NCBI GenBank assembly: GCA_002842345.1
Contig: PHCU01000006.1
Coordinates: 1 to 53,939, forward strand
Source of the DNA: Betaproteobacteria bacterium HGW-Betaproteobacteria-12
GTDB lineage: Bacteria; Pseudomonadota; Gammaproteobacteria; Burkholderiales; Rhodocyclaceae
Direction of reading: 5' to 3'
Length of the DNA stretch: 53,939 nt
Shown here: one piece after another, positions 2,938 through 42,861 of the stretch
Layout: each line of letters opens with the position of its first letter
How positions within the stretch are numbered: the first letter of the stretch is position 1
Notes under the pieces: generated by a model
What the model saw: the letters and a program-made list of their open reading frames with translations, nothing else
What the model was told of the DNA's origin: nothing
Databases searched by the model: none
Translations under genes and position numbers: made by a program

Positions 2938-5900
2938 TCAGCTGCCGGCGGCGGTATCCAACCAGGCTTCGATGGCGCTCAGCGGCTGCGCCCGGGAAAA
3001 CAGGTAGCCCTGGGCGCTGTGGCAACCCAGCGATTGCAGCAGCTCAGCCTGGCCGCGCGTTTCGATGCCTTCGGCCACTACCTGCAGTTTCAGGGCCTGG
3101 CCCAGGGCCAGAATGGTCTTGACGATCTGCGCGTCCTCCTCGTTGCGCTCGGCATCCATGACGAAGGAGCGGTCGATTTTCAGGATGTCGATCGGCAGGC
3201 GGCGCAGGTAGGCCAGGCTGGAGTAGCCGGTGCCGAAGTCGTCCACGGCGACGCTGACGCCGAGTTGGCGCAAACGGGCGAAGATGCCGCTGACCTTCTC
3301 CGGATTGGCCATCACCGAACTCTCGGTCAATTCGATTTCCAGGTCGCTCGGGGCAACGTCGTGCTCGGCGATCAGCTGGCTGATGCGCTCGACCAGATCG
3401 CCGCTCTCCAGTTCGCGCGCCGACACATTGACCGCCACCTTGAGCGGGCGGCCGGCCGTTCGCCAGGCACCGGCCTGACGGCAGGCGGTGGCGAGTACCC
3501 AGGCGCCGAGCTCGACGATCAGGCCGCTTTCCTCGGCGAGCGGGATGAAGTCGTCCGGCGGCAGCAGGCCGCGCACCGGATGCCGCCAGCGAACCAGGGC
3601 CTCGACGCCGGTCGGCCGGCCGCTCGCCATGTCCACCTGCGGCTGGTAGTGCAGTTCCAGTTCGTCGTGGGCGATGGCATGGCGCAGCTCCATTTCCAGC
3701 GTCAGGCGCTGGCTGGTCCGTTCCAGCATCTGCGGCTGGAAAAACCGGTAGGTGTTGCGGCCGGCCGATTTGGCGGCATACATCGCCATATCGGCACATT
3801 TCATCAGCTCGAGCGGATCGCTGCCGTCTTCGGGGAAAAAGGCCATGCCCATCGAGGCGCCGATTTCGACGCGGTGGCCGAGCAATTGCATCGGCCGTGC
3901 CACTTCGGCGATCAGTTCCTGCGCCAGACAGGCGCAATCGCCGACTTCCCGCAGGTCTTCCATGAGCACGACGAATTCGTCGCCGCCCAGGCGGGCCACC
4001 GTATCCATCGCCCGCAGCCGGTGCTTGATGCGCCGCGCCACTTCCTGCAGCAGCAGGTCGCCAACATCGTGGCCGAGCGCGTCGTTAACCCCCTTGAAGC
4101 GGTCGAGATCGATAAAGGTCACCGCCAGCCGGGTGTACTCGCGCTGCGAACGCTTGATCGCATGCTGCAGGCGTTCGAGCATCAGCGTCCGGTTGGGCAG
4201 GCCGGTCAGCGCATCGTGAAAGGCCAGGTGGTGGATGCGCTCGTCCTTGCGGCGCAGTTCGGTGATGTCGTGGAAGACCGAGACGTAACGCACCGGCAGG
4301 CCGTTATGGTCGTCGATGCGGTTGATGGTCAGCCATTCGAGATAGGCCTCGCCGCTCTTCCGGCGGTTCCAGATCTCGCCCTGCCAGCGCCCGGTCCGGG
4401 CCAGGGCGTCCCACATCGCCTGATAGAACTCCGGCGCGTGGCGATCGGAGCGCAGCAGGCGCGGCGTCTGGCCCAGCGCATCGCCTTCGCCATAGCCGGT
4501 AATCTCGCTGAACGCCGGGTTTACCGAGACGATGGTGCAGGCCGCGTCGGTAACCAGGACGCCTTCGGCCGAACTGTGGAAGACGCTGGCGGCGAGGCGC
4601 AATTCCTCCTCGGCGACCTTCTGCGCCGTCAGGTCGCGGCCGACGGCGAGGACGCTGACCGGCCGGCCGTCCGGCCCCAGTTCGGCGACGATGCGAATGG
4701 CGTGATAGCGCGGTTGGCCGTCGGGGCCGGGGACGATCTGCTCGAGATCGATGCTGTCGCCGCTGGCGCCGACCTGCAGCACGGCCGCGGCCAGCGCATC
4801 GTAACGGCCGTCGGGCGCGGCTTCGCGCGCCGTCTTGCCGATCAATTCGCCGGCACTGCGCCCGAGCGTGCGCTCCAGCGTGCGATTGAGGTAGAGGGCG
4901 CGGCCCGCCAGATCGTAGCGGATGACGTTGTCCGGCACGTTGTCGGCCAGGCTGCGGAATTCGCGCTCGCGCTCGGCCAGGGCCTCCGCTGCCCGGCGTT
5001 GTTCGGTGATGTCGTCGAGCATCAGCAGCAGATGCGCTTCGCCGTGGCTGGTGAACTGCGACAGCTGGACATGCACCCACAGTTCGCGGCCGAAGGTCGA
5101 GGTGAAGCGGCTTTCGAGTTCCTCGCGCAGGCCGCTGGCGAGCACCCGCTCGGCCGCGGCGCACAGGCCGGAGGTCTGCCACGAGGCGATCTGGCGGAAG
5201 TTCTGGGCCAGCAGTTGTTGCCGCGAGCCGCCGACCAGTTCGGCGACTGCCGGATTGGCCAGCAGGCACTGGCCATCCTGCCGGTAGGCGAGGATCCCGG
5301 TCGGCGAGTTCATCAGGATGCTCTCGTTGAGGACCAGGCTTTCGCGCAGTTGCGCTTCCTTGGCATGCAATTCGCGGGTGCGTTCCTCGACCCGCTGCTC
5401 GAGGTTCTGGTTAAGGGCCTGGATTTCCGCCTCGGCCTGTTTGCGCCGGGTAATGTCCGAGGCGATGCCGCAGACGGCATAGATCTGCCCGGCCGCGTCG
5501 TGCAGCGGGAACTTGAGCGCCAGCCAGGTGTGCGGGCCGTCGTCCTGCGGGATGATTTCCTCGAACTGCCGCGGCGCGCCGCTGGCCAGCACCTGCTGGT
5601 CGGCGGCCCGGAGCGCCTCGGCCACCGCCGGCGGCAGCACGTCGTAGTCGGTGCGCCCGGCCATCTCCTGTTCGCTGACGCCGAACAGCTCGCCGTAGCG
5701 CCGGTTGATCAACAGGTAGCGCCCGTGCAGGTCCTTGACGAAAACCACCGCGCGCGAGTTGTCGATGATCGCCCGGAGCAGTTGCTGGTTCTGCCGCAAT
5801 TCCTCCTCGGCGCGCTTCAATTCGCCGATCTGGGTGGCGACGCCGAGGATCTTGTCGCAGCCGCCGTCGGCGTCGAGCAGCGGAGTCTTGGTGGTGCTGT

Positions 5901-18612: not shown

Positions 18613-20796
18613 TCAGGCCGCTTGCAGGACGTCGATGGTGCGCGACAGGGCGCGATCGAAGATCGGTTCGGTGGACAGGATCCGCGCTTCGCCGCGCTCG
18701 ATCTGCAGGCTCATGGCCTCCGGCGAGACGGCCAGGGCGTTCGGCGATTCGGGATTGGTGAACAGGAAGATGCCGCGTTGCGGGCTGATCCAGGACAGGC
18801 GGTAGCGGATGGCGCTGCCGTCGGCCTGGAGGTACTCGACCCAGTCGCCGCGTTGCAGCGCCGCGACATCCTGCAGTGGCTGGGCGGCCAGCAGCGGGGC
18901 GGTGACTGAAATACTCTGCACCTTCACCTCGCCATCGTCCAGCGCCTGGCTGGCGATGTCCGGCTCGTCGGCAACCGGTTCCGGCGCGGGCGTTTCATAG
19001 GCCGTGGCCGGCGGTTCGTTGCCACGCAGTGAGGCGGCGTGCAGGGAGAACAGCGCGTCGAGCAGGCGGTGCCGACGGTCGGCCGGAACGCCGACGCGAT
19101 CGAAGCCGGCGGTCAGCTGCTTGATCAGGATCGGCAGTTGGCGGGCCAGGGCCTGCCGTTCCTTGACGTCGTGCTTGGCCCGCACGCTGTCCACCAGGTC
19201 GCCGGCGGTGCTCAGGGCGGTCTGCCAGACCTCGCTGTCGGGGCCTTCCTTCAGATGGATGCGCTTCAACAGCGCCCGCCATTCATGGTCGAGCAGTTCG
19301 CTGACTGCCGTCGGCAGGTCGCTGCCCAGCCAGAGCTGCAATTCGCAGTCAGCCGCCATGGTGGCCAGTTCTTCCAGTTCGCGCTGGACGACGAGCTTGG
19401 CGGCCCGGGTGACGTTGCCCTCGGCCGCCGCCTCGTGGGTCTTCAGGAACGCCTCCAGGTCGTGGGCCAGTGCCTCGAACAGGCTGGTGTCCTGCTTGAA
19501 ATCGCTGTGGATGCGTTCGATGACCTCGGCAATCTTGCGATAGAGCGGATCGTCATGACTGATCTCGCGGCCCCAGCGCAAGGCGGCCCGCGAGATGACT
19601 TCGAGCAGACGGCGGGTCGGGTGGGCCTTGCTGGAGAAGAAGCTGCGGTCGAGCATCGCCACCTTGAGCACCGGGATCTGCAGCTTGCCGACCAGGGCCT
19701 TGATCGGATCGGCGATTTCGCGGTCGTCGAAAATCATGTCGAACAGCATGGCGACAATATCGACCGTGATCGCATCGAGCTGGCCGAGCCCCTGCCCGAC
19801 ATCGCTGGCGCGGAACTGGTGCAGGACATTGGCCAGGTCGCTGGCCGTCGGTTGTGGGGTGATGGCGACCGGGAACGTGTGCTGGAGGGTTTCCAGCGAG
19901 GCCCAGACATGCGCTGGCGCTGCCGGGCGCTCGCCCGTTCCGGCCAGTGCCGCCAGGGCACCGGCGGGCCCCTGCGGCGCAGCGGCCGGAACGCCGCCGG
20001 AGACCAGGCGTTGCAGCATGTCGAACATGTCGGCCGGAGCGGTATTCGCTTTCGACTCGATGCTGCTGGCGCTGCCGGTCTTCGATGGCTGGCTCGCTGC
20101 CCGGCCATAGTCGCGGCGCAGGTTGGGCAGGATGCCATGCTGCAGCAGATGGGCGTTGAGCGCGTGGTAGACCGGGCCGACGTCGGCGTCGATGCCGCTC
20201 TCCAGGAAACGGAACAGCTCCAGGCGGGCGCGGCTGTCGAACTCGGTATCCCGCAAGGCGTCCTTCAGGGACCGGGTGAAGACTTCGGGCGATGACGGAT
20301 TGGCATCCTCGGCGGAATTCTCCCGGCCGACCAGGAAATTGAACCGGCGGCCCAGCGCATACAGCTCCGACTCGCACTTGTCCTTGAGCCGGTTGGCCAG
20401 GGCCTTGAGGGCCAGATCCTCGTCCATTTCGCCGAAATCGACGATCTGCAACTCCTCCAGCAGGAGTTCGCCGGGCGCATGATTCGGCGACCCCTTCAGT
20501 GCGCTATCGAACTCGCGGCCCCAGTGCGCCGCCAGCTGACCTTCGAGGCGGCCACCGTTCTCCGTAAATCTGTCCTTGAGGCCGTAGAGGAAGCGGCGTT
20601 CTTCGCCATCGGTCGTGTTGTCGGCGCGGCGGGCGAGATCCTCGCTGGTGCGCTGCAGCATTTCGCGCAAGGCCTCACGCAGGCGACGGGCCGCCAGATC
20701 ACGGCATTCGAGCAGAATGCGATTGGCCGCCACCGTCACCCGGGGGCCGCCCGGCTGGAGGTTGATTACATTGTTGTAGGTCGTCGTCGCTGCCAT
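18613..20796 (-). CDS. DUF1631 family protein
   Basis: A large soluble protein (727 residues) of the DUF1631 family. The start is ATG 20796, because GAGAGG lies six bases upstream; an upstream in-frame ATG at 20841 has no such site. The N-terminal half is helical (LLECRDLAARRLREALREML, LKDALRDTEFDSRARLELFR), the middle contains DMIFDDREIADPIKALVGKL, typical of the family, and the C-terminal ~110 residues form a beta-rich domain (LQRGDWVEYLQADGSAIRYR, LSWISPQRGIFLFTNPE) that looks like a PilZ-type barrel but lacks an obvious RxxxR. No function is established. The 5' leader carries a predicted c-di-GMP riboswitch, linking its expression to that second messenger. Confidence 0.85.
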   Translation of the reverse strand: MAATTTYNNVINLQPGGPRVTVAANRILLECRDLAARRLREALREMLQRTSEDLARRADNTTDGEERRFLYGLKDRFTENGGRLEGQLAAHWGREFDSALKGSPNHAPGELLLEELQIVDFGEMDEDLALKALANRLKDKCESELYALGRRFNFLVGRENSAEDANPSSPEVFTRSLKDALRDTEFDSRARLELFRFLESGIDADVGPVYHALNAHLLQHGILPNLRRDYGRAASQPSKTGSASSIESKANTAPADMFDMLQRLVSGGVPAAAPQGPAGALAALAGTGERPAAPAHVWASLETLQHTFPVAITPQPTASDLANVLHQFRASDVGQGLGQLDAITVDIVAMLFDMIFDDREIADPIKALVGKLQIPVLKVAMLDRSFFSSKAHPTRRLLEVISRAALRWGREISHDDPLYRKIAEVIERIHSDFKQDTSLFEALAHDLEAFLKTHEAAAEGNVTRAAKLVVQRELEELATMAADCELQLWLGSDLPTAVSELLDHEWRALLKRIHLKEGPDSEVWQTALSTAGDLVDSVRAKHDVKERQALARQLPILIKQLTAGFDRVGVPADRRHRLLDALFSLHAASLRGNEPPATAYETPAPEPVADEPDIASQALDDGEVKVQSISVTAPLLAAQPLQDVAALQRGDWVEYLQADGSAIRYRLSWISPQRGIFLFTNPESPNALAVSPEAMSLQIERGEARILSTEPIFDRALSRTIDVLQAA

Positions 20797-20953
20797 GATC
20801 TGCCTCTCTTGCTGCTGACACGTTACTGAGCTGTCGCACACCGATTAAATCGGGCCTGTCGGCTAACCAATGAAAGCGGTTGAAGCAATGAGGACGCGCC
20901 ACGGACAGCGCGAACTGCCGTCCCGAGGGGAGACGACCGATCCCGCCTAGCCT

Positions 20954-21040
20954 GGCAGTCCCGCTATCTTAGGGTTGATCAATAAATTCAACCCCTTAGA
21001 CCGGTGACTTTGCGTCCCCACCTTTCGATGGGTTTGCCTT
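20954..21040 (-). promoter_or_regulatory. Cyclic di-GMP-I (GEMM) riboswitch aptamer
   Basis: On the minus strand the conserved GEMM-I elements occur in order: AAGGCAAACC (21040-21031), a stem CATC-GAAA-GGTG with GNRA tetraloop (21030-21019), GGGACGCAAAG (21018-21008), the receptor-side segment CCGGTCTAAGG, a second hairpin GGGTTGA/TCAACCC (20994-20972), then CCCTAAGATAGCGGG and closing TGCC (20957-20954). The closing TGCC pairs with the opening GGCA (21038-21035). It lies in the 303-base gap before the DUF1631 gene, 157 bases upstream of its ATG. No intrinsic terminator is seen between aptamer and gene, so the mode of control is open. Recognition is by motif recall; no covariance search was run. 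Confidence 0.88.
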
Positions 21041-21062
21041 GATGCAGTTAGGCCACCAACCC

Positions 21063-21068
21063 ATTCTA
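21063..21068 (-). promoter_or_regulatory. Candidate -10 box for the riboswitch-DUF1631 transcript
   Basis: TAGAAT on the minus strand would start transcription near 21056, about 16 bases before the aptamer core. The surrounding stretch 21061-21110 is AT-rich. A -35 match at the expected spacing (CTGTGA) is poor. Confidence 0.4.
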
Positions 21069-21099
21069 GAACAAAGAAAAAAGATTCACAGAACAAAAA

Positions 21100-21939
21100 T
21101 CAAAAACTCAGAGAGGCGGCCAGCGTGTTTAGTTCCTCACCCGATTCTTCGAGTATTTCGCCCAGGGTCCGGTCGGCCATGACCTGCGTTGACAGGGCCA
21201 GCATGGCGTTGCGCTCCATGTCCGCCGACGGTTGCTGCAGCGGATTGGCGATCGGCGTCAGGCAGTTGGCCAGGTACAGCGTATCGGCGAGGTTTTTCGG
21301 CGGCAGGGTGAAGTTTCCTTCCCATTGCGCGCGGACGGCCGCGGCGATTTCGTCGGGAACCGACAAGCCGCGCAGCACCGCCTGACCGACCTGGGCTTCG
21401 CCGCCGCTCCGCCAGGCTTCCTCGACCCCCTCGCCGAGCAGATCCGGGCAATCGCCGGCGCGGGAGATCAGATAGAAACTGCCGACTTCGTGAACAATGC
21501 CGGCGAACAGGGCCATCTCCGGGTTCTGCCGGCTGACGCGGCGGGCCAGCACGTGACTGAGCGCGGCGACGTGCGTGCTGTGCTCCCACAGTCGGGCCGA
21601 CAGGCTGGCCTGCTCGGGCGACTGGGCGGTGGCGAACTGGCGCATGATCAGGGCCGTCGACAGGCCGCGGATCAGCGGCAGGCCGAGGCGCAGGACCGCC
21701 GTGCGCACGTCCGAGACGGGTTTGCCGGTGCGGTTGTAGGCGACCGAGTTGGCCAGTCCGACGACCTTGGCGGCGAGCATCGGTTCGGCCTGGACCAGTT
21801 TGGCCGCCTTGTCCATGTGGATTTCCGGATCGTCCAGCGCCATGCGTACCTGCAGGGCGACATGGGCATGGGTCGAAAATACCAGTTCGCCGCCTTCTGC
21901 CGCGGCGGCAAGTCTGCGAATCGCTTCTCTGCTGTTCAT
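21100..21939 (-). CDS. HDOD-domain signalling protein
   Basis: A 279-residue protein made of one HDOD domain, a catalytically degenerate relative of HD phosphohydrolases used in bacterial signalling. The HDOD core is visible: LVQAEPMLAAKVVGLANSVA, VSDVRTAVLRLGLPLIRGLS, LWEHSTHVAALSHVLARRVS, ALFAGIVHEVGSFYLI. There is no fused output domain. It lies directly upstream of the riboswitch-controlled DUF1631 gene on the same strand, but the promoter-like box and riboswitch between them suggest separate transcription. Partner unknown. Confidence 0.85.
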   Translation of the reverse strand: MNSREAIRRLAAAAEGGELVFSTHAHVALQVRMALDDPEIHMDKAAKLVQAEPMLAAKVVGLANSVAYNRTGKPVSDVRTAVLRLGLPLIRGLSTALIMRQFATAQSPEQASLSARLWEHSTHVAALSHVLARRVSRQNPEMALFAGIVHEVGSFYLISRAGDCPDLLGEGVEEAWRSGGEAQVGQAVLRGLSVPDEIAAAVRAQWEGNFTLPPKNLADTLYLANCLTPIANPLQQPSADMERNAMLALSTQVMADRTLGEILEESGEELNTLAASLSF

Positions 21940-41346: not shown

Positions 41347-42861
41347 ATGAACGAACCCAAGAATCCCTCCGTGATCGCCCGCGAAGCCCTCAAGCGGCTG
41401 GCGGCCGGCCATGTGCCGCCGACGCCGGCGAACTACCAGGCCTGCTACAACGAGATTGCCAAGCTGCCCAATGCGGCCCCCTTTCCCGAGCAACCGCTGC
41501 GCCAGATCGCCCTGGCCCTGACGACGCGCGACAAGGAACAGGCCAAGGTGCTTGAACGCCTCGACCAGGCGATCGGCCGACGCAGCTGGCATGGCATCCA
41601 GGAGGCGCTGGTCGGCTTCTACAACGCCGGCAATGGCGGCGGGGCCCGCCCGCCGGTCGACGAGCCCGCCCTGTCGCCGGAATTTTCGGTGCGTCTGGCG
41701 CACTTCGTCGAAAGCGTGCTGCCGGCCCTGGGTGACGAGAATCCGCAGGTCGCCGAGATGCTGTCAACCTTGCTCGGGGCATTGCGCGAGGTGCCGGTCG
41801 ATGTGCCGAAACTGCAGGCGATGCTGGCCAGCTTCAATCGCCAGATCCAGTTTGCCGCCGAGGAACAGGTCGAGATCAAGGGCTCGTTGCTCAAATTGCT
41901 GCACCTGATCATCGAGAACATCGGCGAGTTGAGCCTCGACGACAGCTGGCTGAAGGGCCAGATCGACGGCCTGCTGACCGTCGTCGCGCCGCCGCTGACG
42001 CTGCGCCACCTCGACGAGATGGAGCGGCGCCTGCGCGACGTCATGGAGAAGCAGAGCGAAGCCAAGCACCGCTCGCTCGAGGCGCAGGAGGAAATGCGCC
42101 AGATGCTGTCGGCCTTCATAGAGCGCCTGGCGACGATGAACGAGTCGAGCGCCGTCTTCCAGGGCAAGATCGAGCAGAGCGCCCGCGAGATCGAGCAGGT
42201 CAAGCGCATCGAGGATCTGGCGCCGCTGCTCAAGGACGTCATCGGCGCCACCCGGTCGATGGCCGAGGAGACGGCGATCTCCCGCCAGCAGCTGCAGAGC
42301 CTGCAGGAGAAGGTGCAGGCGACCGAGGCCGAGTTGGTGCAACTGCACCTTGAGCTGGACAGCGCCAGCGCCCTGGCCCGCCACGATCCGCTGACCGACG
42401 CGCTCAACCGCAAGGGCCTGGACGAGGCCCTGGCGCGCGAGATCGCCGGCATGCGGCGCAAGGATGCGCCGCTGTCGGTGTGCCTGCTCGACATCGACAA
42501 CTTCAAGAAGTTGAACGACCGCCTCGGCCACGACGTCGGCGACAGCGCCCTGATCCACCTGGCTAACGTCGCCCGCGCCAACATGCGGCCGACCGATACG
42601 CTGGCCCGTTACGGCGGCGAGGAATTCGTCATCCTGATGCCGGATACCGGCCTCGACGACGGCGTCGATGCCATGGTCCGCCTGCAGCGCGAGCTGACCA
42701 AGGCCTTCTTCCTCTCCGGCAAGGAGAAGATCCTGATCACCTTCAGCGCCGGCGTCGCCCAGTTGACCGCCGAGGAATCCGGCGCCGACGCCATCCGCCG
42801 CGCCGACCGCGCCATGTATCTGGCCAAGCGCGCCGGCAAGAATCGCGTCATGGGCGGCTGA
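41347..42861 (+). CDS. Diguanylate cyclase with helical N-terminal sensor region
   Basis: A 504-residue soluble GGDEF protein. Residues 1-~190 are an unclassified helical domain ([33 protein letters not shown]), and ~200-330 a long coiled coil ([40 protein letters not shown]). The GGDEF domain (about 340-504) has [32 protein letters not shown] and the active motif [11 protein letters not shown], with I-site RPTD five residues before it. The enzyme should make c-di-GMP under product inhibition. It precedes the glycosylase gene by 16 bases. Confidence 0.9.

Follow-up and report, generated by a model that had tools for sequence, protein, structure and literature searches.

The window, a stretch of 53,939 nucleotides from contig PHCU01000006.1 of Betaproteobacteria bacterium HGW-Betaproteobacteria-12, carries a c-di-GMP-I (GEMM-I) aptamer between two minus-strand genes, one for an HDOD-domain protein, directly upstream, and one for a DUF1631 protein, downstream (Table 1). 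The likely start codon of the DUF1631 gene is the ATG at 20796-20794, on the same strand as the aptamer and 154 bases from it; the PF07793 match that identifies the gene was taken from a longer frame starting at 20841. Judged from the sequence, the 5' leader of the DUF1631 gene very probably contains a c-di-GMP-I riboswitch. Two GGDEF domains also lie in the window, at 3754-4224 on the minus strand and at 42376-42846 on the plus strand, in frames of 1405 and 524 amino acids, and the genome as a whole has 63 GGDEF matches, 62 of them above the cut-off.

Table 1. Features of the aptamer-DUF1631 locus, in window coordinates.
Feature	Position	Strand	Basis or remark
HDOD-domain gene directly upstream of the aptamer	21100..21939	-	PF08668, E 8.6e-30
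-10-like box TAGAAT	21063..21068	-	sequence; no full sigma-70 promoter by scan
P1 5' strand GCCTA	21049..21053	-	complementary to TAGGC 20949-20945; outside the Rfam model
c-di-GMP-I (GEMM-I) aptamer, RF01051	20951..21048	-	79.2 bits, E 5.5e-14, full model; recovered again in genome search
P1 3' strand TAGGC	20945..20949	-	invariant across four close orthologs
Stem A, a long hairpin behind the aptamer	20908..20947	-	outer pairs overlap the P1 end and the hairpin B 5' arm
Hairpin B, CGCGC-8-GCGCG	20895..20912	-	pairs in 4/4 orthologs, no covariation to test
Ribosome-binding site AGAGAGG	20803..20809	-	sequence; start search
DUF1631 gene (PF07793), 727 aa from ATG	18613..20796	-	PF07793, E 6.5e-150

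The cmscan match to RF01051 covered the full length of the model (positions 1-87) with 79.2 bits against a gathering score of 35, and was the sole Rfam match listed for the window at the gathering score. This score settles the identity of the aptamer. The GEMM-I motif thus lies at the place and on the strand given in the original prediction, and the conserved blocks named there were found in the window sequence. The conserved core residues are present, and the GAAA tetraloop is invariant in all 46 aligned aptamers, in whose helices 12 of the 20 consensus pairs are changed on both sides. The strand GCCTA, which would form the 5' side of P1, also precedes the aptamer in the relatives L123, L124 and L108. 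With RF01051 the window shares the full-length model match, the core residues, the tetraloop and the position in a 5' leader, and it differs in having DUF1631 as target and no visible intrinsic terminator. An aptamer model of the same clan, c-di-GMP-I-GGC (RF03167), scored less well for the window than RF01051. Riboswitches of the GEMM-I class are well known, and the genes under their control are of many kinds, as an excerpt of one account describes (PMC7266159). The riboswitch itself is ordinary, and what is useful is how strongly it is tied to DUF1631.

The c-di-GMP and cGAMP types of the GEMM-I fold are separated by one base that reads the ligand, in these aptamers presumably G20 in Vc2 numbering: A at this base marks the cGAMP type and G marks the c-di-GMP type. 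The window has G here, as do 90 of the 91 non-redundant DUF1631-linked aptamers (105 minus near-copies), which fits c-di-GMP rather than cGAMP, and the A of the cGAMP type is absent from the window. It is very improbable that the window's aptamer uses the GEMM-I fold to sense another cyclic dinucleotide such as cGAMP. GEMM-I variants that sense cGAMP do exist and have the same aptamer fold as the window's, according to the same excerpt (PMC7266159), and among the clan models RF03167 scored best for five DUF1631 leaders (L111, L113, L115, L116 and L117), although each match is below its cut-off; against this stand the nearly uniform G and RF01051 as the best-scoring model for the window. The one exception among the 91, L085 of genome G501 (aptamer at 121-211), has C at the ligand-reading base, which counts on the side of other ligands, and a change of ligand in this DUF1631-linked aptamer is possible.

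The pairing of aptamer and DUF1631 recurs well beyond this genome, as the original prediction had proposed to look for. With a model built from 46 aptamers, an aptamer was found upstream in 60 of the 80 nearest DUF1631 loci of named genomes, a set that includes Azovibrio, Methyloversatilis, Accumulibacter, Propionivibrio, Thiobacillus and Sulfuricella. Three of the 20 near loci without an aptamer match hold fewer than 20 bases upstream, which leaves 17 of 77 without one, so DUF1631 can do without the aptamer. Two such loci, L125 and L144, belong to near kin of the window, and L125 retains the end of an HDOD gene; in L143 and L167 the aptamers look decayed by eye. Within the order (399 genomes), RF01051 was found in 144 genomes and PF07793 in 164. 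At least 44 of the 150 DUF1631 genes listed have one of the 150 listed aptamers on the same strand 120-391 bases upstream, measured from the profile start and excluding two further pairs at about 1.6 kb, whereas, on our own rough reckoning, well below one such pair would be expected by chance. Twelve of the 104 listed genes that remained unpaired were examined, and 5 of these had an aptamer and 7 had none.

Narrower and wider samples place the window's pairing in context. Among 120 relatives, RF01051 was found in 50 and PF07793 in 74, and 12 genomes have an aptamer ahead of a DUF1631 gene, as judged by eye. Inspection by eye also showed that, within the window's genus, the pairing occurs only in the window's genome, G026 and G043, and that most other PF07793 matches of the genus are a form starting later in the profile, none with an aptamer ahead. 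In the class sample (276 genomes), DUF1631 was found in 94 genomes and RF01051 in 44; among the matches listed, read by eye, only the window's genome pairs the two, and outside the order no aptamer lies upstream of DUF1631. In one genome outside the order, G307, an aptamer lies downstream of a DUF1631 gene, at a distance of about 300 bases (contig C32, 91911-91992). The window's own genome has a second DUF1631 gene, on contig C258, and none of the three RF01051 aptamers of the genome lies there. A search for phage relatives of the leader gave no match.

A tree was drawn for 85 DUF1631 proteins, 84 of which carried a label. The presence and absence of the aptamer on it requires 11 changes, compared with 19.6 for shuffled labels, and none of 500 shuffles was as low; the tree was quickly made, several of its branches are long and its root is not fixed. 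The simplest reading is that the link between aptamer and DUF1631 is old and was lost several times, although gains may also have occurred.

PF07793 spans nearly the whole DUF1631 protein with 501.4 bits against a curated cut-off of 33.7, and the family assignment of the original prediction was right. A confident structure model of the 727-residue protein (mean pLDDT 86.7, pTM 0.68) consists of helices between residues 22 and 590, followed by a small beta domain (614-707) and a final helix. The fold search with the full model gave no match at E 0.001 or better, and the profile search of solved structures gave a best E of only 0.21. The C-terminal piece modelled alone was poor (pLDDT 51), and the Tudor-like matches of this poor model, with a best E of 0.015, are leads at most. 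A C-terminal PilZ domain was considered and rejected: hhalign against five PilZ domains of the genome gave a probability of 0.2% and an E of 0.28, and no PilZ title appeared among the best 50 Foldseek rows for either model (316 and 1047 matches). The NCBIfam entry NF058594, 'PacR family protein', matched best at residues 339-725 (E 1.8e-60) with 205 bits against a cut-off of 1200, so that the name PacR cannot be transferred, and a literature search for this name yielded nothing useful. We found no role for DUF1631, and in the open-access literature searched we found no papers joining DUF1631 with c-di-GMP or c-di-GMP riboswitches with Rhodocyclaceae. The gene neighbours are a better clue to DUF1631 than fold matches.

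For 13 of the 80 loci in named genomes, picked for spread, neighbouring genes were scanned. Of 11 upstream frames tested, 5 held HDOD genes, and of 9 downstream frames, 4 held HDOD or EAL-HDOD genes; some of these frames may be non-genes, and in L195 the upstream frame does not adjoin the locus. An HDOD gene lies upstream, as in the window, in L123, L124, L127, L182 and L129. Directly behind DUF1631, EAL-HDOD genes were found in L158 (6317-7627), L162 (6418-7803) and L195 (5705-7120), with one of the three EAL matches above the Pfam cut-off and two below it. In several lineages a tRNA gene lies ahead of DUF1631; of these, L113 and L117 also have the aptamer, and L121 and L122 lack it.

The original prediction had also noted a -10-like box just before the aptamer. 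The hexamer is there; the nearest relative, L123, has TAGAAT as well, and L127, L182 and L146 have TAGACT. However, a scan of 20700-21200 for sigma-70 promoters found none, with 0.1 expected, and over 91 loci the -10-like hexamers formed no clear peak ahead of the aptamer.

Behind the aptamer the leader can form stem A and hairpin B. The outer part of stem A takes in the P1 end as well as the 5' arm of B, so that these three can compete. In the window, L123, L108 and L124, stem A has 14 pairs, of which 7 are changed on both sides, and 87.5% of cells pair; none of 500 shuffles reached as many both-side changes, in a test of four related sequences with a structure drawn from the same four. Stem A alone is predicted at -19.1 kcal/mol. 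RNAalifold with the four orthologs kept the inner hairpin of stem A and hairpin B and dropped the outer stem A pairs, and the P1 strand was paired instead with a conserved stretch farther down. Four leader pieces folded alone were no stabler than shuffles (z -0.39, -1.36, 0.02 and -0.52).

In all likelihood the aptamer controls DUF1631. Binding of c-di-GMP would hold P1 (GCCTA/TAGGC) closed, the closed P1 would shift the balance among stem A, hairpin B and the remaining leader, and the shifted balance would alter the amount of DUF1631 protein, either through Rho-dependent termination or through ribosome access. From folding models of relatives, we lean slightly towards c-di-GMP lowering DUF1631 expression.

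Intrinsic termination was rejected as a shared rule, as a home-made scan found terminator-like sites in just 11 of 88 leaders. A scan of 20700-21200 in the window found no intrinsic terminator, with 0.5 expected, in agreement with the original prediction. It is conceivable, though unlikely, that the window's clade has a terminator of its own, in which closed P1 would free hairpin B and stem A would block hairpin B when c-di-GMP is absent. The overlap of outer stem A with the P1 end and the hairpin B 5' arm would allow such a switch, and T-runs follow hairpin B in L108 and L124. However, the scans that find these two sites each expect 0.7 by chance, the window and L123 have the tail TCCTCAT, the overlap of stem A with P1 is limited to outer pairs that RNAalifold did not choose, and the few terminator-like sites among the 88 leaders also speak against it.

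Ribosome access was modelled in 44 leaders (46 minus two in which no start was found). With the aptamer fold imposed, access to the ribosome site fell by more than 0.05 in 19 leaders and rose by more than 0.05 in 6, and in the window it shifted by -0.03 only. The models thus give a weak indication of ribosome-site masking across leaders, with a flat prediction for the window. Pairing of the leader with the aptamer was also rejected as a general rule: the mean z for complementarity to the aptamer 3' strand over 81 leaders was -0.34, against -0.30 for the 5'-strand control, and z was below -1.64 in 10 and 11 of the 81 leaders, respectively. The window's own value, -2.83, is the most extreme of the 81. 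This test took 81 of the 91 leaders and the test of base composition below took 50; the start finder gave no start in 3 of the 91 and misplaced some, the shortest leader having 1 base.

Rho may instead decide the outcome, with the aptamer gating access to a C-rich, G-poor leader, a reading that we consider possible but rather doubtful. The best C-minus-G value in 50 bases averaged 9.98 in 50 leaders and 6.27 in 26 control upstream regions (p 1.6e-4), so the leaders as a set exceed the controls, but the control set is small and home-made, and the window's leader is ordinary in its excess of C over G, at the 46th percentile.

The lack of a clear platform in the window would also be expected if, in this genome, an intact aptamer belonged to a weak or broken switch, left over ahead of a gene that has ceased to need it. 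The 11 changes of aptamer presence on the tree, the near kin L125 and L144 without a match and the decayed-looking aptamers of L143 and L167 point the same way. Nevertheless, we regard this as quite improbable, because the window's aptamer keeps its high score and ranks 42nd by E-value among the 150 aptamers listed for the order, and because compensatory changes have preserved the adjacent stem A in four orthologs.

The recurrence of the pairing in many relatives suggests that the DUF1631 family is tied to c-di-GMP signalling. The original prediction had assigned DUF1631 to the c-di-GMP response on the strength of one locus; the recurrent pairing gives this reading a better foundation, and we still infer it rather than observe it. 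DUF1631 would be a product made according to the c-di-GMP level of the cell, often beside HDOD or EAL-HDOD genes. More tentatively, and with less than even confidence, DUF1631 proteins could themselves act as an effector or output module for c-di-GMP, alongside HDOD and EAL-HDOD partners; in beta-proteobacteria an old riboswitch for c-di-GMP, dedicated to them and mostly working without an intrinsic terminator, would set their dose. If this is true, DUF1631 is among the main targets of the riboswitch class in the order, with at least 44 of the 150 listed aptamers. The conserved riboswitch names the signal to which DUF1631 expression probably answers, in a family that is common, as the class and order counts above indicate. 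Most genes of the GEMM regulon have no known function, according to an excerpt of a survey (PMC3766115), and DUF1631 may be one of these families.

The other two RF01051 aptamers of the window's genome, a bin with 6.9% contamination, lie on contigs C147 and C4. Each precedes a gene for an exported-looking protein of about 185 amino acids (L002 1607-2161 and L003 1591-2148). Neither protein had an NCBIfam match, the two resemble each other by eye, and they are possibly a second target family of unknown function.
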